Positions 46,918 through 62,626 of a stretch of 64,000 nt of DNA are shown here, piece after piece. Positions within the stretch are counted from its first letter, which is position 1, and each line of letters begins with the position of its first letter. This stretch comes from Rothia nasisuis. GTDB taxonomy: Bacteria; Actinomycetota; Actinomycetes; Actinomycetales; Micrococcaceae. The position numbers and the translations under genes are program-made. The notes under the pieces are model-generated. The model made no database searches and was not told the DNA's origin. It was given only the letters and a program-made list of their open reading frames with translations. The DNA is taken from positions 62,001-126,000 of the forward strand of contig NZ_CAKMSB010000002.1 in assembly GCF_928381405.1 (NCBI RefSeq), in the 5' to 3' direction.

Positions 46918-46924
46918 ATGCCGG

Positions 46925-46949: not shown

Positions 46950-47022
46950 ACTTAAAGGTTGCTGTCACCACACAATTTACCACGTCCACCCTCACGACGG
47001 CTAAATTTGAGACACATTTCAG

Positions 47023-47087
47023 TAGGTACCATCTAAGTCAGAAAAACCCACCTAGTTGGTGGGTTTTTCTGACTTAGATGGTACCTA
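47023..47087 (-). terminator. 30-bp perfect palindrome after nusB (repeat copy 1)
   Basis: Two 30-base arms (47023-47052 and 47058-47087) are perfectly complementary around a five-base loop. The core, AAAAACCCACC and GGTGGGTTTTT, is a bidirectional intrinsic terminator. The outer part carries TAGGTACCATCTAA at each end. It starts six bases beyond the nusB stop. A related copy follows aspS at 60787-60839. Confidence 0.85.
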
Positions 47088-47092
47088 TGGGT

Positions 47093-47503
47093 CTAGGCCA
47101 GCAGGGTCGGCTTGACCTGACGCAGACGGTCGAGCAGGCCGTTGACGAACTTGGGTGAGTCACCCGTTGACAGCAGCCGAACCAGCCCGGTGGCTTCTGA
47201 AATAGCTACCGCATCAGGAATCTCGTCGTTAAAAAGTAGCTCCCAGGCACCTAAGCGCAGGGCAACGCGATCAACGGAGGGCATGCGATCCATAGTCCAG
47301 TCCTGGGCATATGTTTCTATGTACTCTCGAATCTCTTCATCATGGTCACGCACTCCACGAACAATCTGCTCAGAATAGAGGGAAATCTGCGCGGCAGTGT
47401 AGGCACGGCGACGAACCAGAACGTCGATGATATCGTCGCCCCGCTGATCTGCCTCAAACAGAACTTCGAGGGCGCGAAGTCGAGCTTTAGTTCTTGAATT
47501 CAC
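47093..47503 (-). CDS. nusB: Transcription antitermination factor NusB
   Basis: NusB binds boxA RNA with S10 to keep rRNA transcription processive. The 136-residue helical protein begins RTKARLRALEVLFEADQRGD and ends FVNGLLDRLRQ, as the family does, with MDRMPSVDRVALRLGAWELL in between. The start is a GTG. It lies five bases after efp. A long palindromic terminator follows, separating it from pyrR. Confidence 0.95.
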   Translation of the reverse strand: MNSRTKARLRALEVLFEADQRGDDIIDVLVRRRAYTAAQISLYSEQIVRGVRDHDEEIREYIETYAQDWTMDRMPSVDRVALRLGAWELLFNDEIPDAVAISEATGLVRLLSTGDSPKFVNGLLDRLRQVKPTLLA

Positions 47504-47508
47504 GGTGC

Positions 47509-48072
47509 TTAGTCGTTGACGCGGCCGAGGTAGTCGCCTGTGCGGGTATCGACCTTGACCCTGGTGCCGGTCTCAAGGAAAAGGGGAACCTGAATTTCGG
47601 CGCCGGTTTCAACGGTCGCTGGCTTGGTTCCGCCTGTGGAGCGATCACCCTGCAGGCCGGGTTCGGTGTAGGTGATTTCGAGGACGACAGAGGCAGGTAG
47701 CTCGATGTAGAGGGGTGAACCTTCGTGCATGGCGATGGTTGCGGTCTGATTTTCGAGCATGTATTTGGCGGCATCACCGACGGTGACCTCAGATACATTA
47801 ATCTGGTCGTAGGTCTTCATATCCATAAAGACATAGTCGGTGCCGTCCTGGTAGAGGTACTGGTAGTCGGAGCGGTCGACGGTTGCGGTCTCAACCTTAG
47901 CGCCTGCGTTGAAGGTCTTATCGACGACCTTACCGGAGGTGACGTTGCGCAGCTTGGTGCGCACAAAAGCACCGCCCTTACCGGGCTTGACATGCTGAAA
48001 TTCAATGACAGACCAGAGATTTCCGTCAATCTTGAGTACGACACCGTTCTTGATATCTGCGGTAGTAGCCAA
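47509..48072 (-). CDS. efp: Elongation factor P
   Basis: EF-P helps ribosomes through consecutive prolines. The 187-residue protein has the three beta-barrel domains: [19 protein letters not shown] (about 25-43) carries the loop whose lysine-region tip contacts the P-site tRNA, and GDYLGR is the conserved C-terminal signature. The start is a TTG, with AGAGGAGAG upstream. A run of nine T residues on the coding strand sits just before the ribosome binding site. No EF-P modification enzyme gene is in the window. Confidence 0.97.
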
Positions 48073-48227
48073 CAGACTCTCCTCTAAAAAAAAATTTAAG
48101 TTTTCAATAATCGTTGCGGGGCTTCCCGCGATAAACCGTAGACAAGTCTACCGTGTGCTCCACGCCTTTGCGGGGTTTCTTGGTGAGACTCACACGAGAT
48201 ATTGGGAGGACGGCTTTCGCCGAAGGG

Positions 48228-49322
48228 TTAGGCGGCGATCTCTTGGTAGGTCATAAAGAGAATAGAGTCATCGGGTACCTCATAGATGCGGGGGCGGCCG
48301 ACGCCTTCGAGCACAACGAACCGGAGCATATTGCCGCGAGCTTTTTTGTCACGGCGCATGGTTTCAAGCAGCTTGGGCCAGCGGTCTGCGGGGTAGGACG
48401 TGGGCAGGTCCAGGGCGGCGCAAATGGTGCGGGTTCGCTCAACAGTGGCCTCGTCCAGGTAGCCAGCGGCCAAAGAAAGCTCCGCTGCGAAAACCATGCC
48501 CACAGCAACAGCGGCACCGTGTCGCCACTGGTAGCGCTCTGCGTGTTCGATAGCGTGGCCCAGAGTATGGCCGTAGTTGAGGAACTCTCGGCGGCCTGAC
48601 TCCTTGAGGTCTTCTGAGACGACCTTAGCCTTAACACGGATGGACCTTTCAATCAGTTCACGCACCACGTCAGACTGAGAATCACGAATCTCGCCAGGTT
48701 TAGCCTCCAGCAGGTCAAGAATGACCGGGTCGGCAATAAAGCCGCATTTAATCACCTCGGCCATACCGGTCAACAGCTCATTGAGAGGCAGGGTACGTAA
48801 CACACCCAGTTCGCACAGCACAGCGGCGGGCGGGTGGAAGGCCCCCACCAGATTCTTGCCCTCGGCGGTATTGATACCGGTTTTACCACCCACAGCCGCA
48901 TCGACCATACCCAGCAGGGTGGTGGGGACGTGAATGACGCGGACGCCGCGCAACCAGGTGGCTGCTACAAAGCCTGCGAGGTCGGTGACGGCGCCGCCGC
49001 CTACAGCGATGATAGCGTCGGTGCGGGTGAAGTCGTTTTGGCCCAGCACCTGCCAGCAGAAGGCTGCGACCTGAATATGTTTACCTTCTTCAGCATCCGG
49101 AATTTCAGCCGAAAAGGCATCAAACCCCGCAGTGCGCATCTGGTCCATAACCAGCTCACCGGTCGAACGCAGGGCCCGGGGATGAATCACGAGAATCCGC
49201 TGGGTGCGTGGCCCGAGTATGCCGGGGATTTCACCGAGCAAATTATGGCCAACTAAAACGTCGTAGTTCTCAGAAGGCTGATTGCCGGTGACGGAAATGA
49301 CGGTGGTTGGGGCTTCGCTCAT
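48228..49322 (-). CDS. aroB: 3-dehydroquinate synthase
   Basis: AroB converts DAHP to 3-dehydroquinate, the second shikimate step, using NAD and a metal. The 364-residue protein has AVGGGAVTDLAGFVAATWLR, HVPTTLLGMVDAAVGGKTG and LNYGHTLGHAIEH (metal-binding histidines). I chose the ATG at 49322, which overlaps the aroK stop by four bases (ATGA); frames upstream extend into aroK and are unlike the family. It is the last gene of the aroC-aroK-aroB group, 155 bases from efp. Confidence 0.96.
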   Translation of the reverse strand: MSEAPTTVISVTGNQPSENYDVLVGHNLLGEIPGILGPRTQRILVIHPRALRSTGELVMDQMRTAGFDAFSAEIPDAEEGKHIQVAAFCWQVLGQNDFTRTDAIIAVGGGAVTDLAGFVAATWLRGVRVIHVPTTLLGMVDAAVGGKTGINTAEGKNLVGAFHPPAAVLCELGVLRTLPLNELLTGMAEVIKCGFIADPVILDLLEAKPGEIRDSQSDVVRELIERSIRVKAKVVSEDLKESGRREFLNYGHTLGHAIEHAERYQWRHGAAVAVGMVFAAELSLAAGYLDEATVERTRTICAALDLPTSYPADRWPKLLETMRRDKKARGNMLRFVVLEGVGRPRIYEVPDDSILFMTYQEIAA

Positions 49323-49939
49323 GCCGTCTCCTTGCGACTGTTGATGATGAAGTTCTGAATTTCTGCGGCCATATCTGCGATACCGCGGCCACCGCAAGCA
49401 TCTAGGGTATAGCTGGCGAGCTCTTCGTAGCGGTGGCGGCGGGCCTCGAAAATCTGGGTCCATTTTTCAATTGGGTTGGGTTGCAGCAGGGGCCGGGTCT
49501 TGCTGTTTTGAATGCGAGGTGCCACGGTTTCAGCGTCAACCTTAATGTAGATAACGGTTTCGGCGGCCAGCATATCAGCGACGGCCGGGGTCATAGGCGC
49601 TCCCCCTCCCAGGGAGAAAATGGTGTTGCGGCGGGAGGGCGAGGTGAGCACGTCCTTGATAATCTCCGCCTCAATGCGTCTAAACTCGGCTTCACCGTAG
49701 TCAACGAAAAGCTGCGATACCTCACCGTATTTCTCGACGATGAGATAGTCAGAGTCGAGGAATTCGTAGCCGTAGAAGCGCGCCAGATGCGTACCTATGT
49801 AGGATTTACCCGCTGCCATAGGGCCGATAATCACGACCGGGCGAGATTTTTCGATATAGGTTTCTTGCACCTCGCGCACCTGGTTGGGCGCGAGCGCCTC
49901 GGTCATGTCGATCGCGCGGTCACGTGATCGGTTGGGCAT
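49319..49939 (-). CDS. aroK: Shikimate kinase
   Basis: AroK phosphorylates shikimate. The 206-residue form from the ATG at 49939 has the P-loop GPMAAGKS, the shikimate-binding Asp in FLDSDYLIVEKYGE, FRRIEAEII, SLGGGAPM and the lid arginine in KTRPLLQPNP. The N-terminal extension (about 33 residues before the P-loop strand) is longer than usual, and a downstream ATG at 49906 is a possible start. It begins two bases after aroC and overlaps aroB by four. Confidence 0.93.
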   Translation of the reverse strand: MPNRSRDRAIDMTEALAPNQVREVQETYIEKSRPVVIIGPMAAGKSYIGTHLARFYGYEFLDSDYLIVEKYGEVSQLFVDYGEAEFRRIEAEIIKDVLTSPSRRNTIFSLGGGAPMTPAVADMLAAETVIYIKVDAETVAPRIQNSKTRPLLQPNPIEKWTQIFEARRHRYEELASYTLDACGGRGIADMAAEIQNFIINSRKETA

Positions 49940-49941
49940 CT

Positions 49942-51156
49942 CTAGTCGTTCCACCCTGCTACGTTTGATTCCCAGGCAAGGGACTCAGGGATGGCTGCCA
50001 GGTAGGAATCCATATTACGGCGGGTTTCGGTGATGGAGTCTCCGCCAAACTTTTCGAGGGCGGCTTCGGCCAGCACCAGGGCGACCATGGCTTCTGCAAC
50101 GACGCCGGCTGCTGGCACCGCACATACATCTGAGCGCTGATGGTGGGCTCGGGCCACCTCACCGGTAGAGGTGTCGATGGTGGCCAAAGCCTTAGGTACG
50201 GTGGCGATAGGCTTCATGGCCGCGCGAACGCGGAGAAGGTCACCGATGGTCATGCCACCTTCAATGCCTCCTGCGCGGTTAGAGACGCGGTGTACCCCGT
50301 GTTCGCCGGGTACAATTTCGTCGTGGGCGCGGGTGCCGGGGCGCTTGGCGGTTTCAAAGCCGTCGCCAACTTCTACACCCTTGATGGCTTGAATACCCAT
50401 GAGGGCCGCGGCTAAACGCGCGTCAAGGCGGCGGTCCCAGTGCACGTAGGAGCCAAGGCCCGGGGGCAGGCCGTAGGCCAGAACTTCAACCACACCGCCC
50501 AGGGTTTCACCGTCCTTGTGAGCCTTATCGACAGTAGCTACCATAGCTTCAGAGGTAGCTGCGTCGAAGCAGCGCAGGGGGTCAGCATCGAGGGCGGCTA
50601 CATCGCGAGGGGTAGGACGCGGCGCGTCAATCGGCGCTGCCACCTCGGCAATAGCGGTGGTGTGGCTGACCAGCTCTACTCCTAGAGCCTTGAGGATCTG
50701 GGCCGCGACAACACCCAGGGCTACGCGGGTTGCGGTCTCGCGGGCACTGGCGCGTTCCAATACGGGGCGGGATTCGTCAAAGCCGTACTTCTGCATACCG
50801 GCAAAGTCGGCGTGGCCCGGGCGGGGGCGGGTCAGCGCCGCATTGCGGGCACGGTTCTCGATGAGAGCTGGATCTACGGGATCAGATGACATAACATCAA
50901 CCCACTTGGGCCACTCCGTGTTGGCGATTTCAAGAGCAACGGGCCCGCCCTGGGTAAGACCGTGGCGCACGCCGCCAAGGATGCGGACGCGGTCCTCTTC
51001 AAACTTCATGCGGGCACCGCGGCCGTAACCGAGACGGCGGCGGGCCAGGGCATCGCGGACCATCTCACTGGTCAGTTCGACGCCTGCGGGTACACCTTCA
51101 ATAATTCCGACCAGAGCTTCACCGTGTGATTCCCCGGCTGTGAGCCAACGCAGCAT
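49942..51156 (-). CDS. aroC: Chorismate synthase
   Basis: AroC removes phosphate from EPSP to give chorismate and needs reduced FMN. The 404-residue protein starts [20 protein letters not shown] and shows [26 protein letters not shown] and [11 protein letters not shown], the three FMN and substrate signatures. AAGAAGG precedes the ATG. It heads the aroC-aroK-aroB cluster, 107 bases downstream of aroE. Confidence 0.97.
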
Positions 51157-51263
51157 CTCTAACCTTCTTTGTTGTGCCGTTACTTTGTGGGTCTAGTGTT
51201 CTAAGATTGGCAAATCTGGGCGCTGATAGCAAACCTTGGCTTCACCATGCGAGAGATTTCGTA

Positions 51264-52190
51264 TTAGCGGGTGAGCTTGGCGGGATCGCTCACGAGTTCG
51301 GGGGCAAAACCAGTTACAGCTAACCCGATAGCCTGGCGCATAGCGGCTAGAACCTCAGCCTGGTTCGGTAACCGCTCCTCCAGGGTGCGCCCGGTAAAGA
51401 GCTTAACCTGGTCGACGGCCTGGTACATGAGCATCTCTAGCCCACTGGTGACCGCCCCTCCTCGCTGTTGCCAGGCGCTGGCAAGCGGTGAGGGCCAGGG
51501 GTCATACGAGACATCAAGGAGCACTTTGGCCGGGTGCCGGGGAGCTCCCATCAGTAAGGCATCGGCTGCCCCGGAGGGTAGGGTGGATACGGTCACATCA
51601 AAGCTCTGGTAAAGCTGGCTGAAACTGGCGATATTGGCAAAGTTGATGTTCAGGCCCAGACGGGCCGCAGCATCCGATACGCCGAGGGCTCGTGCTGGGT
51701 CACGTACGAAGACCAGGACGTTTTCCGTGCCCAGGTAGGCTAAGGCAGCTAGTGCTGCTGTTGCGGTACCCCCGCCACCAATAATGGCTGCAGAACGGGG
51801 TGCTCCTTCCACTCCGGCCTGACGCAGGGCATTGACGATACCCGATACGTCCGTGTTGTGCCCGTAGGCTCGTCTATTCCCCTCGGCGTTCTTGCGCCAG
51901 AAGACGGTGTTGACCACTCCCACGGCCTGCGCGAAAGGGGTCAGCTCGTCTAGGTGTTCCATGACCACGGTCTTGAGCGGCATAGTGACCGAAAAACCGC
52001 AGGTGCCCGCATCTGGGCCAAGCTCGTCGAAAACGGCCGCTACCTGCTCCTCCGTAGTGTCACGCCGCTCATAGATGATGTGCTCATTGAGCTGCTGGTA
52101 GGCGGCCCGGTGCAGCAGGGGTGACTTGCTGTGCTTAATGGGGTGCCCCAAGACAAAAGCCTTGGGGCACGCAATCGGTTCACACGTCAT
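51264..52190 (-). CDS. aroE: Shikimate dehydrogenase
   Basis: AroE reduces 3-dehydroshikimate to shikimate. The 308-residue protein has the substrate site VLGHPIKHSKSPLLHRAAY, the catalytic lysine in SVTMPLKTVVMEHLDELT, GHNTDVSGIVNALR, and the dinucleotide loop IIGGGGTATAALAAL. Cofactor preference cannot be fixed by eye. The ATG overlaps the mltG stop by one base (TAATG), so the two are coupled; this mltG-aroE pairing is common in actinobacteria. Confidence 0.93.
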   Translation of the reverse strand: MTCEPIACPKAFVLGHPIKHSKSPLLHRAAYQQLNEHIIYERRDTTEEQVAAVFDELGPDAGTCGFSVTMPLKTVVMEHLDELTPFAQAVGVVNTVFWRKNAEGNRRAYGHNTDVSGIVNALRQAGVEGAPRSAAIIGGGGTATAALAALAYLGTENVLVFVRDPARALGVSDAAARLGLNINFANIASFSQLYQSFDVTVSTLPSGAADALLMGAPRHPAKVLLDVSYDPWPSPLASAWQQRGGAVTSGLEMLMYQAVDQVKLFTGRTLEERLPNQAEVLAAMRQAIGLAVTGFAPELVSDPAKLTR

Positions 52191-53407
52191 TAGGAACAGA
52201 CGCCTTCGTGAGTCTCACAGAACCTATCGTAGATCTCTACGTTCTGGAGGTGCTCTTCATAGGTCTCGGCAAAGAGGGTCTCACCGGTGAAAAGATCAAC
52301 TGTCACCCAGAAGTAGTAATTATTCTTTTCTGGATCAGCTGCCGCCTTGATGGCTGCTGCACCGGGTGAACCAATGGGGCCAGCCGGTAGTCCCTTGTAG
52401 TAGAAGGTGTTGTATTTGTTGCTGGCGTCCTGCTTCTGCTCATTCGAGATATGGTAGCTCTGAATACCCAGACCGTAGGCTACAGTAGCGTCTGACTGCA
52501 AGAAGCCGCTGGTTTCACCGTCGGGATTATTCATACGATTTTCAATAGCACCAGCGATGGGTTTGTAGTCAGCCTCTCTACCCTCAAACTCCAGAATAGA
52601 CGCGACTGTAATGACATGGAAGATACGGTCGTCACCGGTTACACCATCAGCCTCAAGCTGCTGCTTGGTGTTATCGACCATCATCTGCAGGATTTCCTTG
52701 GCACCTGCGTCCTTGGGGAATCTGTACTCACCCGGGTAGAGGAAGCCCTCTATCGTGGGGAACTGGGAGGGAATACCAAATTCCTCGGGGTTCTCCCCCA
52801 GAGACTTAAATTCTTGCACGCTAATACCGGTGCCGGTGGCCAAGGCCTCGAAGGTCTTGTCCATACGCCAGGTACGGTCAACGGCTACGTAGTTTGTGTT
52901 GGCATCGTCAAAGCGCAGGAGCTTGCTTAGGGCGGATGAGCTACTCATCTCTTCTTGGAGCTTGTATTCACCGGGTTGGAAGTACTGGCCGGGCGCGGTC
53001 TCACTGTAGACATCAAGGAAGCGGTCAGCGTTGGCAATGATGCCCTGCTCTTCGAGGGCAGCAGCGATGGAAATAGCTCCCTCGCCTTCCTTAACAACAA
53101 AGGTCACTTCAGTTCCGTTACCTTCACCGGCGTAATCTTTCCGCTCGAACCAGCCAAATTGAGGGGCTAGCACAGAGAGCACCAAGATGAGAGCCACGGT
53201 GAAAAGGATACCTGCGGAAATGAGGAAGTTACGTGAGCGGCGCTTTCGTTGCTCTCTCGGATCAGCTCTGGTGCCGTGTTCGTACTCAACTTCGGTAAAG
53301 AATCCACTCCCAGAGCCACCGTCCGCTGGCCCAAGAATACCGCTAAGATCTGTCTGCTGGTTTCTGGTGCGGCGAGGGCGGCGGCTAGAACTCGTGTTCT
53401 CAGACAT
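52190..53407 (-). CDS. mltG: Endolytic transglycosylase MltG
   Basis: MltG cuts nascent peptidoglycan strands outside the membrane and helps set glycan length. The 405-residue protein has a basic cytoplasmic tail, one membrane helix (about 70-88), and the YceG domain (about 105-400) with SILEFEGREADYKPIAGAIENR, which carries the catalytic glutamate region, and GPIGSPGAAAIKAA. I chose the ATG at 53407, with GGAGAA six bases upstream; it overlaps ruvX by eight bases. Confidence 0.94.
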   Translation of the reverse strand: MSENTSSSRRPRRTRNQQTDLSGILGPADGGSGSGFFTEVEYEHGTRADPREQRKRRSRNFLISAGILFTVALILVLSVLAPQFGWFERKDYAGEGNGTEVTFVVKEGEGAISIAAALEEQGIIANADRFLDVYSETAPGQYFQPGEYKLQEEMSSSSALSKLLRFDDANTNYVAVDRTWRMDKTFEALATGTGISVQEFKSLGENPEEFGIPSQFPTIEGFLYPGEYRFPKDAGAKEILQMMVDNTKQQLEADGVTGDDRIFHVITVASILEFEGREADYKPIAGAIENRMNNPDGETSGFLQSDATVAYGLGIQSYHISNEQKQDASNKYNTFYYKGLPAGPIGSPGAAAIKAAADPEKNNYYFWVTVDLFTGETLFAETYEEHLQNVEIYDRFCETHEGVCS

Positions 53408-53942
53408 GCGGGTTCTCCGTTTCGTCGTTGAAGGTCGGCTGGGCAGGGTTGGCGGTGTTCTTGGTATCTTCAACCAGGTAACCAGCTAGATGCTGCCCCG
53501 CTTTGAGGGTATCGACCGCATGCTGCAGGATATTGACCGCAGCAACCTGATCGACCATAGTTTTAAAGTCTCTGCTCGATACCCCTGCCTCATGTAGGGA
53601 GCGGTGAGCGCTCACCGTGGTGAGTCGCTCGTCCACCAACCACACGGGCAAGGGGGTACCATCATCGGCAAGTTCTTGAACCAGGGCCTCGGCGTAGTCA
53701 CGAGCCATCACGGTTGAAGGGCTCTCTCCCCCACCCATGGTTCGAGGGAGCCCCACAAACACCTCGGTCACGTCGTTAACCTCGATAAGTTTACGGAGCA
53801 CACGCCGATCTGAGTTCTTTTTCATATCGCGACGTAGGGTTTTGAGCGGGGTTGCGAGTATGCCGTCGGGGTCGCACAGGGCTAGGCCGACGCGAGCATT
53901 CCCCACGTCGACTCCCATGCGGCGGCCTCTGGTGAAGGTCAC
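53400..53942 (-). CDS. ruvX: Holliday junction resolvase-like protein RuvX/YqgF
   Basis: An RNase H-fold nuclease proposed to act on Holliday junctions or to process 16S rRNA ends. The catalytic acids lie in MGVDVGNARVGLALCDPDG, VWLVDERLTT and VDQVAAVNILQ. From the GTG at 53942, four bases after the alaS stop, it has 180 residues; an ATG at 53918 with AGAGG upstream is equally possible. The C-terminal 30 residues are a low-complexity tail. The order alaS-ruvX-mltG-aroE is conserved. Confidence 0.92.
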   Translation of the reverse strand: MTFTRGRRMGVDVGNARVGLALCDPDGILATPLKTLRRDMKKNSDRRVLRKLIEVNDVTEVFVGLPRTMGGGESPSTVMARDYAEALVQELADDGTPLPVWLVDERLTTVSAHRSLHEAGVSSRDFKTMVDQVAAVNILQHAVDTLKAGQHLAGYLVEDTKNTANPAQPTFNDETENPHV

Positions 53943-53946
53943 GGTG

Positions 53947-56634
53947 CTAGGCTCCCAGCTCGGAAATCGCGGAGCGAATTGCGGTAAAAGCTGCGTCAAT
54001 TGCGGTGGGATCCTGCCCGCCGCCCTGGGCGACGTCGTCTTTACCGCCACCGCCACCGCCCAGTACACCTGCGGCGATGCGGACGAGAGCGCCCGCCTTC
54101 ACACCCGCATCGCGAGCTGCCTGGTTGGTAGCTACCAGAATGACAGGGCGGCCGTTGTTTACACCGGCTACAGCCACGGTAGCGGCCTCTTCGCCCAGGC
54201 GGCCACGCAGGTCAAGGGCCAGTTCACGCACGGCATTGGCGTCCAGCTCGCCAGCGTTGTGTAGCAGAGTGCGTACGGAACCAACCGTCTGGGCTGACTC
54301 GGTCAGCTTACCGGCCTCCGCCTGTAGCTTTTCCTTGCGGAGCTTGGCCAGTTCTTTCTCAGCTTCCTTGAGCTTGGTCAGGGTCTGGTTAATCTTCTCG
54401 GGCAGTTCAGCCGAGGACTGAACCTTCATCAGACCGGTCAGCTGGTTGACCAGGGTGCGCTCAGCTGCCAGGTGGTTGAAGGAGTCTAAGCCCACCAGCG
54501 CTTCAACGCGGCGGTTGCCGGAGCCGACAGACTGCTCGGTGAGCAGGGTCAGCGAACCAATCTGGGCGGTTGAACTAACGTGAGTGCCGCCGCAGAGCTC
54601 GCGGGAGAACTCGCCGCCCATTTCGACCACGCGCACGGTATCGCCATACTTCTCGCCGAAGAGGCTCATGGCACCCAGCTTCTTAGCCTCGTCCAGGGGC
54701 ATGGTGCGGGTGATGGTCTCGAAGTTGTCGCGAATTGCGGTGTTAGCAACTTCTTCGACCTCCTGCTTTGCCGAGTTTGAGAGACCCTCGCTCCAGGCGA
54801 AGTCGAAGCGTAGGTAGCCCTCCTTGTTGAAAGAGCCGCGCTGGGTTGCCTCATTGCCGAGTACTTGGTGGAGGGCAGCATGGATGATGTGGGTACCAGA
54901 GTGAGCCTTTTCGCCGTCGCGGCGGCGCTGAACGTCCACCTGGGCAATCACAGGAGCGCCAGCTACTGCCTCACCCTCACGCACCACAGCACGGTGTACA
55001 GAAAGACCTTTAACGGGTTGCTGTACGTCTGACACATCGATGGTGAAGCCGTTACCAGAAATCACTCCGGTGTCAGCGGCCTGGCCACCTGCCTCGGCGT
55101 AGAAAGGGGTCTTGTCAAGTACAACTTCGACCTTCTGACCAGCAGACGCTACCGGAACGCTCACACCGTCAATGAGAACGGCGCGCAGGGTGGTTTCGGT
55201 GCGCAGCTCATCATAACCGGTGAAGATAGAGCCGCGCTCATCAGCCATCTCTCGAAAGACAGAGAGGTCAGCCATTCCGCCCTTCTTGGCCTTGGCGTCG
55301 GCCTGGGCACGGTGGCGCTGCTCTTCCATGAGGGCGCGGAACTGGGCCTCATCAACCTTTACACCGGCTTCTTCTGCCATTTCTAGGGTCAGGTCAATGG
55401 GGAAGCCGTAGGTATCGTGTAGGGCAAAGGCATCTGCGCCAGAAACCTCACCCTTACCGGCTGCCTTGGCAGAGGCAACTGCCTCCTCAAGGCGGGAGGT
55501 ACCGGACTCAATGGTCTTGAGGAAGGCCTTCTCTTCGGCGTAGGCAATACGGGAGATACGCTCAAAGTCTTCGGCGACCACAGGGTAGGCACCTGCCATA
55601 GCGTCACGCGAGGCCGGGAAGAGCACGGGCAGGCAGGGTTCAGTGACGCCCAAGAGGCGCATAGCGCGAATGGCGCGGCGCATAAGGCGTCGAAGAATAT
55701 AGCCCCGGCCTTCATTGGAGGGAGTAACCCCGTCGGCAATCAGCATGAGTGAGGAGCGGACGTGGTCGGCAACCACGCGCATACGCACATCGTCCTCGTA
55801 TCCCTCATCTGAGGCGTTCTCAGACCCGTGGTACTTCTTTCCTGAGAGCTGCGAGGCCGCATCAAGCACAGGGCGCACCTGGTCGGTTTCATAGAAGTTC
55901 TCAACGTTCTGCAGGAGCATGGCCAGGCGCTCTACGCCCAGGCCGGTGTCAATATTCTTTGTGGGAAGATCACCCAGAATCTCGAAGGAATCTTTGCCAG
56001 TGCCCTCACCACGCTGGTACTGCATAAAGACCAGGTTCCAGATTTCAATGTAGCGATCATCATCAGCCGCGGGGCCGCCCTCTTTACCATATTCGGGGCC
56101 GCGGTCGTAGAAAATCTCGGAATCGGGGCCTGCGGGGCCGGGTTGGCCGGTGGACCAGTAGTTTTCTGACATGCCCATCTTCTGGATCCGCTCGGCGGGG
56201 AACTTTACGTCATTAACCCAGATGTTGTAGGCCTCGTCGTCGCCCTCATACACAGTAACCCAAAGACGGTCGGGGTCAAGGCCGTAGCCGCCTTCCTCAA
56301 GGGACGAGGTCAGCAGCTCGTAGGCCCAGGGAATGACCTCCTTCTTGAAGTAATCACCAAAAGAGAAGTTACCGGCCATCTGAAAGAAGGTGCCGTGGCG
56401 GGCGGTCTTACCGACCTCGTCAATATCCAGGGTACGGATACATTTCTGTACGCTCACGGCGCGAGAAAAGGGGGGAGTTTCACGGCCTAGGAAGTAAGGA
56501 ATAAAGGGCACCATGCCAGCGATAGTGAACATAGCACCGGGCTCATGAGAGACAAGAGAAGCCGAAGGTACCACGGTGTGCCCGCGCTTTTCGAAAAAGC
56601 TAATCCAGCGCTGTGAGATTTCCTGTGAAAGCAT
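53947..56634 (-). CDS. alaS: Alanyl-tRNA synthetase
   Basis: AlaRS charges tRNA-Ala and clears mischarged Ser and Gly. The 895-residue class II enzyme has the catalytic core (about 1-250, MFTIAGMVPFIPYFLGRE, WNLVFMQYQRG), the editing domain with zinc ligands HSGTHIIHAALH and CGGTHVSSTAQIG, and a C-terminal C-Ala domain with the glycine-rich VLGGGGGGKDDVAQGGG. AGGAAG lies about 11 bases before the ATG. No T-box is seen in the 60-base upstream gap. Confidence 0.97.
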   Translation of the reverse strand: MLSQEISQRWISFFEKRGHTVVPSASLVSHEPGAMFTIAGMVPFIPYFLGRETPPFSRAVSVQKCIRTLDIDEVGKTARHGTFFQMAGNFSFGDYFKKEVIPWAYELLTSSLEEGGYGLDPDRLWVTVYEGDDEAYNIWVNDVKFPAERIQKMGMSENYWSTGQPGPAGPDSEIFYDRGPEYGKEGGPAADDDRYIEIWNLVFMQYQRGEGTGKDSFEILGDLPTKNIDTGLGVERLAMLLQNVENFYETDQVRPVLDAASQLSGKKYHGSENASDEGYEDDVRMRVVADHVRSSLMLIADGVTPSNEGRGYILRRLMRRAIRAMRLLGVTEPCLPVLFPASRDAMAGAYPVVAEDFERISRIAYAEEKAFLKTIESGTSRLEEAVASAKAAGKGEVSGADAFALHDTYGFPIDLTLEMAEEAGVKVDEAQFRALMEEQRHRAQADAKAKKGGMADLSVFREMADERGSIFTGYDELRTETTLRAVLIDGVSVPVASAGQKVEVVLDKTPFYAEAGGQAADTGVISGNGFTIDVSDVQQPVKGLSVHRAVVREGEAVAGAPVIAQVDVQRRRDGEKAHSGTHIIHAALHQVLGNEATQRGSFNKEGYLRFDFAWSEGLSNSAKQEVEEVANTAIRDNFETITRTMPLDEAKKLGAMSLFGEKYGDTVRVVEMGGEFSRELCGGTHVSSTAQIGSLTLLTEQSVGSGNRRVEALVGLDSFNHLAAERTLVNQLTGLMKVQSSAELPEKINQTLTKLKEAEKELAKLRKEKLQAEAGKLTESAQTVGSVRTLLHNAGELDANAVRELALDLRGRLGEEAATVAVAGVNNGRPVILVATNQAARDAGVKAGALVRIAAGVLGGGGGGKDDVAQGGGQDPTAIDAAFTAIRSAISELGA

Positions 56635-56694
56635 CGAGGAGTATCTTCCTTTGGTTTGGGTTTAAATCTGGGGGCCTGCTAGAGGCTAAAAGTT

Positions 56695-57159
56695 TTAGGC
56701 GAAGAAGTCTTTGCCGAGCTCTGCATCGCGGGCCAGACGCTTGCGAACCTCCGCTTCGCGGCCCTCACGGCTAACTGCTGAGGGCAGGGCATCGGAATCC
56801 ATGACGCCGGTGGGCGAGTTATCGGGTGGTAGTTGCTGCCAGGTGTCTAAGGAGCCGGGGCGGACGTCCTGTGTCTGGGCATCAAAGCGGTTCTTAAGTT
56901 CGGCTTCTTTTTCGTCCATACCAGCCTTGACGGTGGCTGCAAACCCCAATGCCTTAAGGGCCGCATTCTTGAAGGGAGCCCCGTAGGTGGAATCGAAGAA
57001 TCGAGCCATGGTACCGCCTTCGCTGGTGAACCGTTCAAGGGTGGTTTTGGTTTTAACTTCCACATCGGTGCGAGCGGGTTTCGCCACCCTGGTGCGGGTG
57101 GCCAGGAAGCCTGCTGCTGCTCCACCGGTGATGAGTAGAACGTTTTTGAGCAGACCCAT
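56695..57159 (-). CDS. Small DUF6167-like membrane-anchored protein
   Basis: A 154-residue protein with one N-terminal hydrophobic segment (about 4-21), then a mostly helical, charged body. Actinobacteria carry such a protein between the DUF948 gene and alaS. The function is unknown. The ATG follows the DUF948 stop with no gap, so the two are almost certainly co-translated and may interact. The family name is assigned from position and general shape, not from a diagnostic motif. Confidence 0.65.
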   Translation of the reverse strand: MGLLKNVLLITGGAAAGFLATRTRVAKPARTDVEVKTKTTLERFTSEGGTMARFFDSTYGAPFKNAALKALGFAATVKAGMDEKEAELKNRFDAQTQDVRPGSLDTWQQLPPDNSPTGVMDSDALPSAVSREGREAEVRKRLARDAELGKDFFA

Positions 57160-57567
57160 TTAGAACTCCTCAGCGGCGCTGGCCTCAGCCTGGCTACGCG
57201 GTGGAACGGGTGAAGGCCCAGCCGCGTCACCCCTGACAGCCTTGCGAATGCCGTGCGAGAAAGCTGCGACTTTAATGAGGGGTTGCCCAACGGTCGAGGT
57301 GACCAGTGACGAGAGAGCTGACACATTAGCTGAGGCATCTGAGACGTTGGAGGTAATGCTGTCAACCTTCTCAATCTGCGCATTGGTAGAGGTCACTGTC
57401 TTGGTGACTTCGCCGATAAGCGGGGCCGTCTCGTCGTTCAGCGATTTGATGGTGGTCGTGAGTTCGTCAAAGACCCTGCCCAGCTTGATGATGGGTAGAG
57501 CCAACAGGGCAACGAGTACGGCAAAGACCCCTGCGGCAATAAGACCTGCGATGTCTGCTCCACTCAT
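57160..57567 (-). CDS. DUF948 domain protein
   Basis: A 135-residue protein with an N-terminal membrane helix (about 4-27) followed by a helical stretch (about 33-90, FDELTTTIKSLNDETAPLIG) typical of DUF948, whose members resemble methyl-accepting or phasin-like coiled coils. It is probably anchored in the membrane with the coil outside or at the surface. The function is unknown. I chose the ATG at 57567; upstream sequence in frame is unlike the family. It lies between rpsD and the DUF6167-like gene. Confidence 0.82.
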   Translation of the reverse strand: MSGADIAGLIAAGVFAVLVALLALPIIKLGRVFDELTTTIKSLNDETAPLIGEVTKTVTSTNAQIEKVDSITSNVSDASANVSALSSLVTSTVGQPLIKVAAFSHGIRKAVRGDAAGPSPVPPRSQAEASAAEEF

Positions 57568-57799
57568 GGGGCACCTGCTTTCTGGTAGGCATCGTCTACC
57601 CTTAAGAACACGATTTGGTAACAATCTTACTTGACGTATGGGGATGCACGGAATTTTTTGCACATTTTGCCCGGTCGAACCTATCACATCTGAGCCTGTC
57701 ACTGCGTTTACCTAACCCAGCCGCACCGGTAGTCTGTGCCCCCATCTTCTTGCGGTGGCACAGCAAAAATGACACCGACTGAGGAGAGCCTTAAAGGGG

Positions 57800-57842
57800 C
57801 CAGCCCGCACCTTCTCCCCGGAACAGGGTGGGTGCGGGCTGG
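57800..57842 (-). terminator. rpsD terminator
   Basis: ccagcccgcacc (57800-57811) pairs with 57831-57842 across a 19-base loop, just after the rpsD stop. No long T-run follows. Confidence 0.75.
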
Positions 57843-57858
57843 CTAATGCTCGGCGTGA

Positions 57859-58491
57859 TTAGGCCAGGCGTGAGTAGTATTCAACCACGAGCTGCTCTTC
57901 GCAAGTGACGGGAATTTCTTCACGCTTGGGCGCGCGCTCAAGCTTAGCGTGGAGCTTCTCAATCTCTACATTCAGGTAAGCGGGGGTGTCGGGCAGGACG
58001 TCCTGGTGCGCACCGGTGGCTGCAACCTGGAAGGGCGCCATCTTCTCGCTCTTGGGGTGAACGTGGATGAGCTGGCCGGGCTTGACGCGGAAGGAGGGGC
58101 GGTCAACGCGGATGCCGTCTACCATGATGTGGCGGTGAACGACGAGCTGACGAGCCTGCGCGATGGTGCGAGCGAAACCTGAGCGCAAGACGAGGGCGTC
58201 CAGGCGGGTTTCGAGAATCTCGACCAGGTTCTTACCGGTCTGGCCTTCGATGCGCTTAGCTTCGAGGTAGGCGCGGCGCATCTGTGCTTCACGGATGTTG
58301 TACTGTGCGCGCAGACGCTGCTTTTCACGCAGCTGAACAGCGTAGTTTGAGTCTGCCTTCTTGCGGCTACGGCCGTGCTGGCCGGGGCCGTAGGGACGGC
58401 GCTCGAGGTACTTTTCAGCCTTGGGGGTCAGCGCGATGCCGAGGGCACGTGACTGACGCACGGTACGGCGGGTACGGTTGTGGTTTGCCAC
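57859..58491 (-). CDS. rpsD: 30S ribosomal protein S4
   Basis: S4 nucleates assembly of the 30S body by binding 16S rRNA. The 210-residue basic protein has the S4 RNA-binding domain (RLDALVLRSGFARTIAQARQ and VHRHIMVDG, about 90-150). The GTG start has AAGGAA eight bases upstream. It stands apart from the S10/alpha operons, as usual in actinobacteria where rpsD is sometimes separate. The N-terminus has no CxxC zinc motif, so it is the zinc-free type. Confidence 0.97.
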   Translation of the reverse strand: MANHNRTRRTVRQSRALGIALTPKAEKYLERRPYGPGQHGRSRKKADSNYAVQLREKQRLRAQYNIREAQMRRAYLEAKRIEGQTGKNLVEILETRLDALVLRSGFARTIAQARQLVVHRHIMVDGIRVDRPSFRVKPGQLIHVHPKSEKMAPFQVAATGAHQDVLPDTPAYLNVEIEKLHAKLERAPKREEIPVTCEEQLVVEYYSRLA

Positions 58492-58849
58492 AGTTCGTAT
58501 TCCTTTTCTTTAGCGGTTGGCACGGCTCGTAACGCATAAACGGTGGTGTGCTGAGCTTTCCTCTCACGCGCGGTGAGGGGTGCCATTCTTCTGGTGGTCT
58601 GGCCTCCGTATGTGCCACCCACGGATTTGGGTGGTGGAGAGTATAGAGCAGCCGCACTCTTGGTACTACGAGCTACCCGGTGATCGATTGCCCTTTCCCT
58701 GCCCCAGGTCAGAACGCACGGGCACAGGCGGGTCACTGCGTTTTGGGTAGTCTGCCAGCCAAGTTAATAGTGTACAGCCCCGAGCACGTGAAGTCTGTAG
58801 CGAATATGGCGGCTTGATGTGGGTTTGTGCACATCAGGAATCTGCTGCT
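58492..58849 (-). promoter_or_regulatory. Non-coding rpsD leader region with promoter and two hairpins
   Basis: No gene is seen in these 358 bases. On the minus strand a near-consensus TATACT (58640-58645) would start transcription at about 58633. At that point lies a hairpin of CCACCCA and TGGGTGG (58615-58634). A second, CCCCTCACCGCGCGTGAGAGG (58559-58580), follows. The leader is about 140 bases long, which is long for this genome and could allow S4 autoregulation. The rest, up to rarA at 58850, shows no clear signal. Confidence 0.45.
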
Positions 58850-60253
58850 CTAGTGCGTCCTGGTATGTAGCAGGGACTTTATGCGGGCAAGGCGCTCCCC
58901 TAATTCCCGCTCCCCACCGAAGGCTGTGGGTTGAAAGTAGGTCTTACCCACCAGTCCCTCAGGTGCGTATACCTGCTGGGCCACCCCGTTCTTTTCATGG
59001 TGAGGGTAAACATAGCCCTTGCCGTGCCCCAAGCCACTCGCACCTGGGTAGTGAGCATCACGCAGATGTAGGGGAACCGGCCCTGCCAAACCTGCACGGA
59101 CGTCCGCCAGGGCTCCATCAATAGCCTTGTACACGGCATTAGATTTTGGTGCCGTGGCGAGGTGCACCGTCGCCTGCGCCAGATTAAGCCGGGCCTCCGG
59201 TAGGCCCACCAGCTGCACTGCCTGCGCAGCATTTACCGCAGCTGTCAGAGCGGTGGGGTCGGCCATACCGATATCCTCACTAGCATGTACAACTAGGCGG
59301 CGGGCAATAAACCGTGGATCCTCCCCCGCTTCGATCATGCGCGCCAGGTAATGCAAGGCCGCATCGACATCAGAACCACGAATTGACTTGATAAAGGCAC
59401 TGATAACGTCATAGTGTTGATCGCCCTTCTTGTCGTAGCGAACCACCGACTGGGTCAGCGCCTGCTGGGCGTGTTCCTGTGTGACGGTCACCGGGTGCTC
59501 AGCGGAAAAGACGGTACCGGCACCTGTGGCCTCTCCAAAAGCCACAGCTGCAGCCGCCTCCAAAGACGTGAGAGCCTTGCGGGCATCTCCCGCAGCTAGC
59601 TTCACCAGGTGCTCCTGAGCGTCGGCTTCTAGTTTTACCTGACCGGCCAGACCTCGTGAATCAGTAACCGCCCTGTCAAGTAGTTCTTCAATATCGGCAT
59701 CGGTCAGCCCCTGGAGTGTGAGCAGAATCGAGCGTGACAGTAACGGAGAGATTACGGAAAAGGAGGGATTCTCGGTTGTTGCTGCCACCAAAACCACCCA
59801 CCGGTTCTCGACCCCCGGCAAAAGGGCATCCTGCTGGGCCTTGGTAAACCGGTGAATCTCATCAAGAAACAGCACCGTGGTCAGTCCGCGAAAGTCGCGA
59901 TCTTCAAGGGCCTGTTCCATGACCGCACGAACGTCCTTGACCCCGGCTGTGATGGCTGAAAGCTCCACGAACTTCCGCCCCGTACCCTGAGCAATCACGT
60001 TCGCAAGGGTGGTTTTGCCTGTTCCAGGAGGGCCCCAGAGAATCACCGAACTCGGCCCGGCAGGGCCACCGCCCTCACCTGCTAACACACGTAGCGGTGA
60101 TCCCAGACCCAGCAGGTGTTTCTGCCCCACCACCTCGTCCAAAGACCGCGGCCGCATACGTACTGCAAGAGGGGCACGTTCCCGGGTGCGCTTGATGTGA
60201 TGAGATTCCTGCTCAGGCTGGCTGTCATCAAAGAAGAAAAGTGAGGGTTCCAT
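58850..60253 (-). CDS. rarA: Replication-associated recombination protein RarA
   Basis: RarA (MgsA) is an AAA+ ATPase that acts at stalled replication forks. The 467-residue protein has Walker [17 protein letters not shown], Walker B FLDEIHRF, and the C-terminal MgsA domain with [25 protein letters not shown] and [17 protein letters not shown] lies just before the ATG. It is downstream of dtd by about 30 bases. Confidence 0.94.
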
Positions 60254-60285
60254 GGCGACCTCTCAGGTGTCGGTAGGTAGTGGGG

Positions 60286-60720
60286 CTAGAGGGCGTCGGT
60301 GTCAAGAATCAGAGTCACCGGGCCATCATTGACCAGACTGACCTGCATGTATGCGCCGAACCGGCCAGTTTCGACTCTGACGCCCGCATCTCGCAGGGCC
60401 TGCACATAGTCGTTAAAGAGTGGTTCGCTCACCGGTCCGGGAGCTGCCGCAGACCAGGACGGACGCCGCCCCTTCTTCGCATCTCCATAGAGGGTAAATT
60501 GGCTGACGGCCAGCACGGGGGCAGCGGCGTCCACCACAGACCGTTCCCCCTCCAGCAGGCGCAGGTTGGCTGTTTTCTCAGCCAGTTTAGTCACTTGAGC
60601 GGGGCCGTCCTCGTGGGTTATGCCGACCAGGACCAGCAGGCCGGGCCGGTCAATTGCCCCTACCGTTTGGCCCTCTACGGTAACGGTTGCTGAGGTAACC
60701 CGTTGAAGAACTGCGCGCAT
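60286..60720 (-). CDS. dtd: D-aminoacyl-tRNA deacylase
   Basis: Dtd hydrolyses D-aminoacyl-tRNA and Gly-tRNA-Ala, protecting translation. The 144-residue length is usual. The two active-site motifs are SQFTLYGDAKKGRRPSW (about 79-95) and the VNDGPVT cross-subunit Gly-Pro motif near residue 130. GGAG lies upstream of the ATG. It is placed between the aspS terminator repeat and rarA. Confidence 0.94.
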   Translation of the reverse strand: MRAVLQRVTSATVTVEGQTVGAIDRPGLLVLVGITHEDGPAQVTKLAEKTANLRLLEGERSVVDAAAPVLAVSQFTLYGDAKKGRRPSWSAAAPGPVSEPLFNDYVQALRDAGVRVETGRFGAYMQVSLVNDGPVTLILDTDAL

Positions 60721-60786
60721 GGGTGCTCCTATATATGTAGGGGGCTGACGGTTCTAGCCTATCAACTGCCCTAGAAAAGACCAGAA

Positions 60787-60839
60787 AAACCAGAAATACC
60801 CACCTAGTTCGTGGGTATTTCTGGTTTAGATGGTACCTA
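60787..60839 (-). repeat. Palindromic terminator-like repeat after aspS (copy 2)
   Basis: A 17-bp perfect stem (60787-60803 with 60811-60827) and seven-base loop contain CCCAC and GTGGG around ctagttc, close to copy 1 at 47023-47087. On the aspS side it keeps TAGGTACCATCTAA (minus strand of 60826-60839) exactly, while the other outer arm is degraded. It lies about 15 bases beyond the aspS stop and is followed by T-rich sequence. Confidence 0.75.
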
Positions 60840-60853
60840 CCGGGAAGGGATGC

Positions 60854-62626
60854 TTACTTCTCGCCGTCCTTCTTGGGCTTGAAGTCCACACCGGCTTCCT
60901 TACGCTGCTGGGCAGTGATGGGGGCAGGGGCCGCAGTCAGCGGATCGTAGCCACCACCGGTCTTGGGGAAGGCAATGACGTCACGGATGGAGTCGGTGCC
61001 GCCGATCAGCTGCAGAACACGGTCCCAGCCGAAGGCGATACCGCCCATAGGGGGCGCACCGAAGCTGAAAGCCTCCAGTAAGAAGCCGAACTTCTCCTGG
61101 GCCTCTTCTTCGGTAATACCCATGACCTTGAAGACTCGTTCCTGTACGTCGCGCTGGTGGATACGAATTGAACCGCCACCAATTTCGTTACCGTTGCAGA
61201 CAATATCGTAGGCGTAGGCCAGGGCCTCGCCGGGGTTCTTGTCGAAGGAATCCAGGAAGTCAGGCTTGGGCGAGGTGAAGGCGTGGTGCACGGCCGTCCA
61301 AGCGGAGTGGCCCAGGGCGACGTCGCCGGAGGCGGTCGCGTCAGCGGCAGACTCAAACATGGGGGCGTCCACAACCCAGACGAAGGACCAGTCGCCGTCC
61401 TTAATCAGACCGGTGCGGTGACCAATCTCAACGCGGGCTGCACCCAGCAGGGCGCGGGAGGCCTTGGCTTCACCGGCTGCAAAGAAGATGCAGTCGCCGG
61501 GCTTGGCGCCAGTAGCTGCCGCCAGGCCCTCGCGTTCAGCGTCGGTGATGTTCTTAGCAACGGGGCCGGTCAGCTCACCGTCCTCCTGAATCAGCACGTA
61601 GGCTAGACCCTTAGCGCCTCGTTGCTTGGCCCATTCTTGCCAGGCATCCAGGGTGCGGCGGGCCTGGGATGCACCGCCGGGCATCACAACAGCACCCACA
61701 TAGGGAGCCTTGAATACGCGGAAGGTGGTGTCTTTAAAGTAGTCGGTCAGCTCGGTGAGCTCCAGATCGAAGCGCAGGTCGGGTTTGTCCGAACCGTACT
61801 TCTCCATGGCCTCCCTGTATGTAATGCGTTCAATGGGGCGGGGAACCTTAACATCAATTAGAGCCCACACGGCCTCAACGATCCGCTCTCCAAGGTCGAT
61901 GATGTCTTCCTGATCAACGAAAGAGGCCTCGATGTCGAGCTGGGTGAACTCGGGCTGACGGTCGGCACGGAAGTCCTCGTCGCGGTAGCAACGAGCAAGC
62001 TGGTAGTATTTCTCAATGCCGCCCACCTGTAGCAACTGCTTGAAGAGCTGGGGGGATTGGGGCAGAGCGTACCAGGAGCCAGGTGCCAGGCGTGCGGGAA
62101 CCAGGAAGTCCCGAGCACCTTCGGGGGTAGAGCGGGTGAGAGTAGGAGTTTCAACTTCTGTAAAGCTCTGGCTGTGCAGCACCTCGCGGGCAGCCCGGTT
62201 AGCCTCGGAGCGCAGGCGCATCAGGCGGGCCGGTTCTGGGCGGCGCAAATCCAGGTAGCGGTATTTGAGGCGGGCTTCTTCACCGACTTCAACATGCTCA
62301 TCAATTTGGAAGGGTAGGGGCACTGAGGTATTCAGCACCGTGGTTTCCTTGACCATAACCTCAACCTCACCGGTGGTTAGATTGGGGTTTTCGTTGCCCT
62401 CGGGGCGGCGAGTGACCTCACCAACAACCTGCAATACGTACTCATTGCGCAGGTGCTCAAAATCAGCTTCGTTATGGAAAACAACCTGGGTGACGCCTTC
62501 GCGGTCACGTAGGTCAACGAAAGCAACGCCACCGTGGTCGCGGCGCCGGGCTACCCAGCCTGCGAGGGTGACAGTTTCTCCGATGTTTTTGGCGGTGAGT
62601 TCACCAAGGGTATGAGTGCGTAGCAC
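60854..62626 (-). CDS. aspS: Aspartyl-tRNA synthetase
   Basis: AspRS charges tRNA-Asp, and in many actinobacteria also tRNA-Asn. The 590-residue bacterial-type class IIb enzyme has the OB-fold anticodon domain ([20 protein letters not shown], about 21-40), [17 protein letters not shown] (motif 2), the bacterial GAD insertion and [15 protein letters not shown] (motif 3, near 530). The GTG start has AAAGGAAAC upstream. It lies about 140 bases after hisS. Whether it is discriminating cannot be told by eye. Confidence 0.96.

Follow-up and report, generated by a model that had tools for sequence, protein, structure and literature searches.

The window analyzed here, a stretch of 64,000 nucleotides from the genome of Rothia nasisuis (G000; other G numbers denote other Rothia genomes), contains two copies of a palindromic element that we name K. 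Copy 1 lies between nusB and a phosphoribosyltransferase-domain gene, which is probably pyrR, and copy 2 lies between aspS and the D-aminoacyl-tRNA deacylase gene dtd (Table 1). No Rfam family matched the region from 46900 to 61000 of the window above its gathering score.

Table 1. Genes and parts of the two K copies, in coordinates of the window.
Feature	Position	Strand	Remarks
Copy 1 of K	47023..47087		Symmetric, both ends GGTACC; perfect palindrome of 65 bp
Left-arm conserved end of copy 1	47023..47036	+	TAGGTACCATCTAA
Inner core of copy 1	47042..47068		AAAAACCCACC-TAGTT-GGTGGGTTTTT; from sequence and rule-based check
Loop of copy 1	47053-47057		TAGTT
Right-arm conserved end of copy 1	47074..47087	-	TAGGTACCATCTAA; nusB ORF 6 nt away
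Copy 2 of K	60774..60839	-	Asymmetric, 66 bp; GGTACC end beside the aspS stop, GGTCTTTTC end distal
T-type end of copy 2	60774..60783	-	TGGTCTTTTC on the minus strand
Conserved end of copy 2	60826..60839	-	TAGGTACCATCTAA; aspS ORF about 15 nt away
Phosphoribosyltransferase-domain gene, downstream of copy 1	46288..46917	-	Pfam Pribosyltran
nusB, upstream gene of copy 1	47093..47503	-	Pfam NusB; ORF
dtd, downstream of copy 2	60286..60720	-	Pfam Tyr_Deacylase
aspS, upstream gene of copy 2	60854..62626	-	Pfam tRNA-synt_2, GAD, tRNA_anti-codon

Copy 1 is built of TAGGTACCATCTAAGTCAGAAAAACCCACC, the loop and the exact reverse complement of TAGGTACCATCTAAGTCAGAAAAACCCACC, in agreement with the initial annotation, which had placed two perfect 30-bp arms directly after nusB. 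Its inner core is a GC stem with A5 on one side and T5 on the other, and according to a rule-based check either strand can be read as a terminator. The RNA fold of copy 1 reached -54.8 kcal/mol (z -13.5 against shuffled sequences) and that of copy 2 -35 kcal/mol (z -5.9). Copy 2 had been described as sharing the core, the loop and the 14-base end of copy 1, and all three are present along with the far arm, the conserved end being on the minus strand. The limit drawn for it at 60787 was too short, because the sense (minus) strand runs on to GGTCTTTTC, and the outer arm that had been called degraded is instead a recurrent end type, T, which 14 of the 29 retrieved G000 copies share.

The whole genome of G000 contains about 30 copies of K, so that the dispersed hairpin repeat with a conserved end proposed from the first two copies is borne out. 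Within the window the exact 14-mer TAGGTACCATCTAA occurs three times, always inside copies 1 and 2. When up to three mismatches were allowed six matches were found (shuffle mean 2.45), a number that 5 of 100 shuffles reached, and therefore only the exact matches are telling at this scale. The genome-wide search that the initial annotation had called for returned 14 exact 14-mers, all in hairpin copies: 13 in strong BLAST copies and one elsewhere (C1:135579), which forms the outer end of a nested copy in L040. The end GGTACCA is identical in all 28 copies of alignment A2, which come from G000, the one genome in which this was scored, and it was mostly retained among the nusB orthologues. All 14 asymmetric (K/T) copies of G000 carry their GGTACC end toward the stop of the upstream gene.

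For a view of position and anatomy 77 copies were fetched, 29 from G000, 15 from G020 and 33 from G005. A gene 3′ end was located at most 60 nt away in 73 of the 77, compared with a chance expectation of 34%, since 1262 of the 3694 intergenic positions that a copy could take in the window are that close to one. Under a strict rule, a GC stem with a T-run was present on both strands in 62 copies, on one strand in a single copy and on neither in 14. The assertion that K is not a simple terminator was thus half right, as the inner part of most copies is built like an intrinsic terminator. A generic scan for simple terminators listed neither window copy, possibly because its stem rule runs through the T-run. 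Terminators also do not require an unvarying GGTACC about 30 bases away from their loop, which counts against the terminator reading.

Among 30 Rothia genomes in which the loci were seen, K is present after both nusB and aspS in the same ten, all of which belong to one branch, the R. nasimurium complex (complex genomes). In the other 20 seen at each locus K was absent from both sites, one nusB locus being cut by a contig end. The initial annotation had named, as a result that would speak against it, that only the two copies exist and that related species have unrelated terminators here; copies turned out to be many, and 20 other Rothia genomes do lack K at both places. Across the nusB orthologues 97% of the cells of the stem are paired, and the stem shows some compensatory changes: four pairs are altered on both sides, which 3 of 500 shuffles attained. 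The covariation score of 0.080 is nearly equal to the 0.072 of a control slid by +1, and the outer six stem pairs are invariable.

Together, the copy number, the 3′-end position, the two-strand anatomy and the occurrence in one branch point to a lineage-specific family of mostly bidirectional intrinsic terminators. We consider it rather probable that K is a lineage-specific set of palindromes, near-perfect, dispersed and roughly 65 bp long, that act as intrinsic terminators at gene 3′ ends, in most cases two-sided, and that are spread and kept by recombination. Termination itself is predicted from anatomy, position and retention. A polymerase running past the gene would transcribe the inner GC hairpin (CCCAC...GTGGG or GACCAC...GTGGTC), which would fold and be followed by a U-run, and the mirrored A-run would provide the equivalent signal for a convergent gene. 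The conserved outer end may be upheld by sequence exchange together with the long stem.

Evidence for such exchange comes from comparison of the copies between genomes. G005 has a dialect of its own: 16 of its 33 copies have CGG/CCG in both arms, a trait shown by 1 of 29 copies in G000 and by 1 of 15 in G020. Copies within G005 are more similar to each other (0.845) than G005 copies are to their G000 orthologues (0.828), yet orthologous copies are still closer than non-orthologous ones. No excess of within-genome similarity was found in G020, and homogenisation is therefore clear in only one genome. In G042 an ABC-F-like gene lies between two K copies; its sister G041 has neither the gene nor the copies, and the DNA around the gene in G042 is nearer to that of the complex genomes than to that of G041, a pattern that suggests import. 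Dispersal and upkeep would most simply be explained by recombination, in which strains swap gene ends along with the hairpin and copies inside one genome, as the G005 dialect suggests, trade sequence.

A second, unrelated palindrome family, F2, occupies part of the K sites in crown genomes. Both families have lengths of 65-67 bp. At 11 of 41 gene ends some genomes carry K and others F2; these ends lie in six intergenic regions, so that there are fewer than 11 independent swaps. The spacers at swapped ends are related (permutation p 0.011 over 10 ends, which are partly non-independent). Copy numbers of K and F2 are opposed (Spearman -0.78), and the combined hairpins number 24-40 per complex genome, with a mean of 35. 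A 15-mer search had suggested that F2 is missing from G000 and G005; this was wrong, as an F2 model gave 7 and 10 two-strand matches, respectively. Somewhat unlikely, but worth stating, is the idea that complex genomes hold a near-constant total of interchangeable gene-end hairpins, in which the older K is being replaced at shared sites by the non-homologous F2 of similar length and layout. If true, terminators would be mobile, competing modules, moved by a replacement process acting on gene-end palindromes. Recombination from copy to copy leaves the mutual replacement of non-homologous K and F2 unexplained.

The initial annotation had also raised a mobile hairpin or a binding element. Transposition found no firm support: G000 has neither a RAYT (Y1 transposase, PF01797) nor a Tn3 transposase, and target duplications were not clear. 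A REP/RAYT system is accordingly ruled out for G000; RAYT genes are present in two of seven sampled complex genomes (G002 and G012). K and F2 might instead be degenerate miniature transposons, that is, paired Tn3-type terminal inverted repeats with nothing between them (TIME/MITE-like), once moved by a foreign transposase and kept as terminators. We regard this as quite unlikely, even if it fits the constant length, the two-armed build, the conservation of the outermost bases, the dispersal and the existence of two families. Half-elements of K resembled what we take to be the Tn4430-type repeat better than shuffles did (p 0.0015-0.011 over two dialects and two shuffle kinds), and one F2 arm resembled the presumed Tn21-type repeat (p 0.018-0.038); both comparisons are post hoc, picked after a resemblance was noticed, and the other F2 arm did not match (p 0.14). 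Duplications of 5 bp showed no clear excess for either family (best of 81 offsets against shuffled pairings: 4 versus 1.5 for 49 K/K pairs, 4 versus 1.3 for 51 K/T and 5 versus 2.9 for 29 F2). A Tn3 transposase is found in one of ten carriers, G002, the repeat beside the transposase in G002 and G042 (L265, L266) matches neither family, and K is almost confined to gene 3′ ends. It is unlikely that GGTACC, or the long duplex RNA, serves at gene ends as the target of a protein that, for instance, insulates convergent genes, processes 3′ ends or organises DNA, with selection holding the sequence. Such a reading would account for the invariant end, the fixed outer pairs at nusB and the orientation of the asymmetric copies. 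However, the invariance comes from one genome, the GGTACC end is missing in 2 of 33 G005 and 1 of 15 G020 copies, and F2, whose end is different, sits at these sites too, so that a single fixed recognition sequence is unnecessary there.

That the 14-mer directs uptake of same-species DNA is extremely improbable. Its inverted pairs at gene ends and its species dialects do resemble the uptake-sequence terminators of Neisseria and Pasteurellaceae as described in PMC1852404 and PMC3630211, but uptake signals are there given as generally at least 1,000 per genome (Kingsford 2007, PMC1852404), against about 30 copies of K, and every exact 14-mer of G000 lies inside a hairpin, with no single copies; we therefore rejected this candidate. 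The palindrome could also be a recombination site for gain and loss of accessory genes, which would explain genes lying between two copies. Several such genes have relatives with one hairpin (K or F2) in their place: an XRE/153-aa pair, HipBA, two G005 genes, a 279/299-aa ORF without Pfam match and an aspS insert of 845 or 466 bp. Six of seven G005 copies with a common loop are at bracketing sites, but at least five further bracketing G005 copies do not have that loop (the right copy of L186, two of L173, and those of L178 and L192), and relatives carrying a single hairpin were not encountered for either CorA or the ABC-F-like gene. In contiguous blocks, junctions with an element had changed in 3 of 12, 2 of 8 and 3 of 8 cases, versus 9 of 90, 9 of 80 and 4 of 77 without (p 0.15, 0.26 and 0.016; 0.42, 0.66 and 0.053 with a 40-bp gap filter). 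A gene that imported its own terminator from a common gene pool would moreover look identical, and we hold a cassette boundary to be very unlikely. An insertion hotspot, suggested by single loci, was dropped when this controlled comparison gave no firm excess; a tally under looser criteria, 20 of 43 at ends with an element against 6 of 26 at others (p 0.07), was set aside for gene-calling errors and sites selected by variation.

Terminators are usually regarded as locus-specific and independently evolved. If K is the terminator family that we favour, one branch of Rothia has, at many genes unrelated to one another, terminators that are nearly the same in sequence and in most cases bidirectional, and the genome-specific dialect and the second family at some shared sites take it beyond an ordinary terminator. 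Because relatives keep K at its sites or carry the unrelated F2 there, the bacterial “full stop” would be dispersible and swappable like a module. The family offers a natural experiment on the spread and homogenisation of 3′ ends as well as a set of long palindromes whose stability can be studied, and crossovers between strains may take place at such gene-end repeats of 65 bp.

We found no publication on the K repeat in a literature search that covered in part only top-ranked matches and few subscription journals. In the minimal mobile elements of Neisseria, accessory genes differ between conserved neighbours across strains. The K-bracketed loci resemble these in that accessory genes vary between fixed neighbours; unlike them, the K boundaries share one hairpin, and excess change at these boundaries is not firmly supported. 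Like the Tn3-derived TIMEs presented in PMC4133298, K and F2 are short, non-coding and composed of inverted repeats without a transposase, but they measure only 65-67 bp and have no clear duplications, whereas the simplest TIMEs reported there reach 262 bp, their repeats being 38 bp long, and the non-autonomous elements make target duplications of 5-6 bp. With REP/BIME and stem-loop repeats, as treated in PMC12306157 and PMC2267715, K shares the character of dispersed intergenic palindromes, and gene conversion is raised for REP evolution in the title of a 1988 review cited in the RepRanger article (PMC12306157). Unlike REP sequences, K has terminator T-runs, the mark by which RepRanger separates terminators (PMC12306157), and its host G000 has no RAYT transposase. 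Unlike uptake-sequence terminators, K is limited to about 30 near-perfect palindromes of 65 bp whose 14-mer is never found outside hairpins; as in those terminators, one repeat makes terminator hairpins at many gene ends (PMC1852404), and just as uptake sequences differ in dialect between species (PMC3630211), K differs in dialect between genomes.

Both palindromes of the window belong to a dispersed family of ~65 bp, the K element (see table). The perfect 30-bp arms noted for copy 1 in the initial annotation were confirmed on either side of its loop; this copy is flanked by two minus-strand genes, nusB and one for a phosphoribosyltransferase-domain protein (probably pyrR). Copy 2 had been correctly placed directly after aspS, and dtd was identified on its other side; its limits had to be extended, and its far end is not decayed as had been proposed, since this end, GGTCTTTTC, recurs among copies. 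Predicted RNA folding energies were -54.8 kcal/mol (z -13.5) for copy 1 and -35 kcal/mol (z -5.9) for copy 2; a generic terminator scan reported neither. The window contains a further long hairpin (16393-16436; 20-bp arms, GGTAGGGGGCCGGGCACGTA), the sequence of which is unlike K and unlike F2, a second palindrome family of relatives.

K copies of the window and genes or inserts found between two hairpins in Rothia genomes
Feature	Position in window	Description
Copy 1 (K element)	47023-47087	two perfect 30-bp arms, loop TAGTT
Copy 2 (K element)	60774-60839	minus strand is the sense strand, reads TAGGTACCATCTAAACCAGAAATACCCACGAACTAGGTGGGTATTTCTGGTTTTTCTGGTCTTTTC; between aspS and dtd
Bracketed genes, site 1		XRE-type regulator and 153-aa ORF
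Bracketed gene, site 2		279/299-aa ORF, no Pfam match
Bracketed genes, site 3		HipB/HipA
Bracketed genes, site 4		184-aa ORF and DHDPS-family gene
Bracketed insert, site 5 (aspS)		845 bp (G002, G014) or 466 bp (G012), short reading frames

Searching the 2.72 Mb genome of origin (G000) for the conserved 14-base outer end (14-mer), as the initial annotation had suggested, returned 14 exact occurrences; up to two mismatches gave 24 + 24, compared with 5 + 6 when the pattern was reversed. A BLAST query of the entire palindrome produced 60 match rows over both strands, a few being weak 14-base pieces, and a covariance model (R1), built from 28 K copies, gave 60 two-strand matches, corresponding to about 30 copies. 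Twenty-nine copies were fetched and re-found by profile, and a weaker model match at C1:144044 was left out of the set. Thirteen of the exact 14-mers lie inside strong BLAST copies and the remaining one is the outer end of a nested copy (locus L040); as all of them belong to K copies, the conserved end and the hairpin core occur together.

K has an outer end, (T)AGGTACCA; moving inwards, AT-rich sequence gives way to an A-rich run and then to a GC stem of ~5 pairs, and beyond a short loop the same order is mirrored. GGTACCA shows no variation across an alignment of 28 G000 copies. Ends are of two types, 'K' (GGTACC) and 'T' (GGTCTTTTC or a near variant): of the 29 G000 copies, 13 have K at both ends (K/K), 14 have one of each (K/T), and in the other two one end is irregular. 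In all 14 K/T copies it is the K end that points toward the stop codon of the gene upstream; the loop is seen in both orientations relative to the ends. A reversed copy in G005 (L190:3599-3664), with its T end toward the upstream gene and its K end away, follows the second gene of a tandem pair of paralogues, presumably NhaA-like. Nested or tandem elements (L040:2010-2093, L049, L053, L171) carry an additional GGTACC end ~15-35 nt past the palindrome, a layout resembling the insertion of a hairpin within or next to another.

Position relative to stop codons, a check proposed in the initial annotation, was determined for 77 copies (29 from G000 and, from among the matches listed, 15 from G020 and 33 from G005), with genes called by codon usage. 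A gene 3' end lies within 60 nt of 73 copies, and at least one K end faces it in 68; the same distance was found for 1262 of 3694 random intergenic 65-bp placements in the window. Under a strict terminator rule (GC stem, then at least four T in five), 62 of the 77 copies qualified on both strands, one on a single strand and 14 on neither. Positional exceptions include the reversed L190 copy and the region upstream of an ABC-F-like gene with two ABC_tran domains. The copies in the latter region (L173:2005-2069 in G005, L164:1957-2021 in G020, L223 in G042), among the few not at 3' ends, immediately precede a TTGACA-N17-TACAAT-like promoter and also lie upstream of a divergently read gene, putatively FAH-type as judged by eye.

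An exact 34-base pattern was found in 25 stretches among 84,980 species genomes (exact matching; the window's own records were possibly left out), all in Rothia: R. nasimurium strains, Candidatus Rothia avicola, one further Rothia and one R. endophytica. R1 matched 12 of 35 genomes in a genus search, with 16-66 two-strand matches (about 8-33 copies) in each of ten genomes of one branch, the complex, seven in G042 and two weak ones in G004. Outside the genus, the 14-mer gave one single-mismatch match (39 relatives sampled, including 14 other genera). When the aspS and nusB loci were compared by eye, the related-species check of the initial annotation gave a divided answer: K is kept at both 3' ends in the same ten complex genomes (10/30 with loci returned at each site) and is absent from the other 20 per site, many of which show other hairpins; the nusB locus of G023 ends at a contig edge. 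In a quick aspS + nusB tree, eight genomes formed a crown that excluded G000 and G005 (split support 0.98); how these two branch with respect to the outgroups had low support (0.22). From these matches we infer that the window's genome belongs to the R. nasimurium complex.

Sites without K in G020 and G045 are occupied by F2, a 65-67 bp palindrome (AAGGGGACC-KCAAAACCT-AAAA-GGGACCGC-loop-mirror, two arm types) that has no homology to K and would take its place there. A model (R2) built from 21 F2 copies gave 19-50 two-strand matches per genome across the crown of eight, seven in G000, ten in G005 and 1-4 in six others (G023, E 1e-12; G007, G039, G041, G042 and G048, weaker). Forty-one gene 3' ends were visible in two or more complex genomes and had an element in one of them (ends of convergent genes sharing a hairpin counted twice). 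Of these, 24 had K in all genomes seen, six K or neither and 11 K or F2; the zero 'F2 only' ends are uninformative because the sample was picked mainly via K sites. The 11 swapped ends represent six intergenic regions (tandem c11 paralogues counted once), and their stop-to-hairpin spacers resemble each other more than those of shuffled ends do (0.341 versus 0.234, p 0.011; 10 ends, partly non-independent). K and F2 half-counts are anticorrelated (Spearman -0.78, p 0.008; ten genomes, uncorrected for relatedness) and sum to a mean of 34.6 per genome (s.d. 4.8, range 24-40), counts that may be low since 147-150 first-look candidates were scored per genome. The two outer lineages are K-rich and F2-poor, which suggests that K is older. 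Apparent deletions were seen in G045, where an F2 hairpin at one convergent junction is reduced to its last bases (L205), and in G020, from which a hairpin flanked by two C-runs in G045 is missing (L201).

The 30-pair stem is kept among the ten nusB orthologues (nine distinct): 97% of cells are paired, a value matched by one of 500 shuffles. Four pairs are altered on both sides (3/500 shuffles), and seven both-side-changed cells together with the covariation score were reached by none. A control slid by +1 nearly equals the covariation (0.072 versus 0.080), so that the paired percentage (97 versus 49) is the clearer signal; 23 of the 30 pairs show no variation. CGG/CCG occurs in both arms of 16/33 G005 copies, 1/29 in G000 and 1/15 in G020 (G005 and G020 among the matches listed). 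Similarity within G005 was 0.845 versus 0.828 to G000 orthologues (23 pairs), and these orthologues are closer than non-orthologues (0.784; 0/5000 permutations reach the observed mean). No homogenisation was detected in G020 versus G000, 0/14 copies being closer on average to own-genome copies. Seven G005 copies have the common loop; six of these sit where two copies bracket genes, and five or more further bracketing copies of G005 lack it.

Five sites have a lone hairpin, K or F2, in some genomes and a pair of hairpins enclosing genes in others (see table). CorA and ABC-F-like genes are also bracketed; no single-hairpin counterpart was seen in relatives. In G005, hipBA lies between ~122-bp direct repeats made up of the element and the 3' end of the next gene (L064:1345-3115); a hipA remnant and one element remain in G000 (L054, C3:104500-107500). 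G042 has an ABC-F-like gene between two K copies, and its sister G041 has neither gene nor copies there. Parts of this segment match complex genomes at 98-99% identity, and its left flank is closest to G041; we read this as an apparent import by recombination with flanking DNA. When three contiguous blocks were compared (191 kb in G000, with the corresponding DNA of G020 and G005), one of the three comparisons gave a significant excess of gene-content change at element junctions; once a gap filter was applied, none did.

Most likely, K is a family of intrinsic terminators, most of them usable in both directions, that exchange has dispersed and kept alike. The analysis showed their anatomy and position, retention at orthologous gene ends, some changes on both sides of a pair, one genome-wide dialect and one apparent import. 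The hairpins would end transcription, and exchange of gene ends between strains, together with exchange of sequence between copies, would account for dispersal and similarity. The outermost GGTACC is strictly kept. In a post hoc comparison, K showed a weak resemblance to Tn3-type ends; no clear target duplications were found, and Tn3 transposase is absent from nine of the ten carrier genomes. REP/RAYT was rejected in the sense tested. The best-ranked matches of a literature search held no account of the K repeat. Copy number and placement do not fit a DNA uptake sequence, a candidate we rejected, and in this K is unlike the repeats of Neisseria and Pasteurellaceae; as a repeated hairpin terminator, it would work like them.
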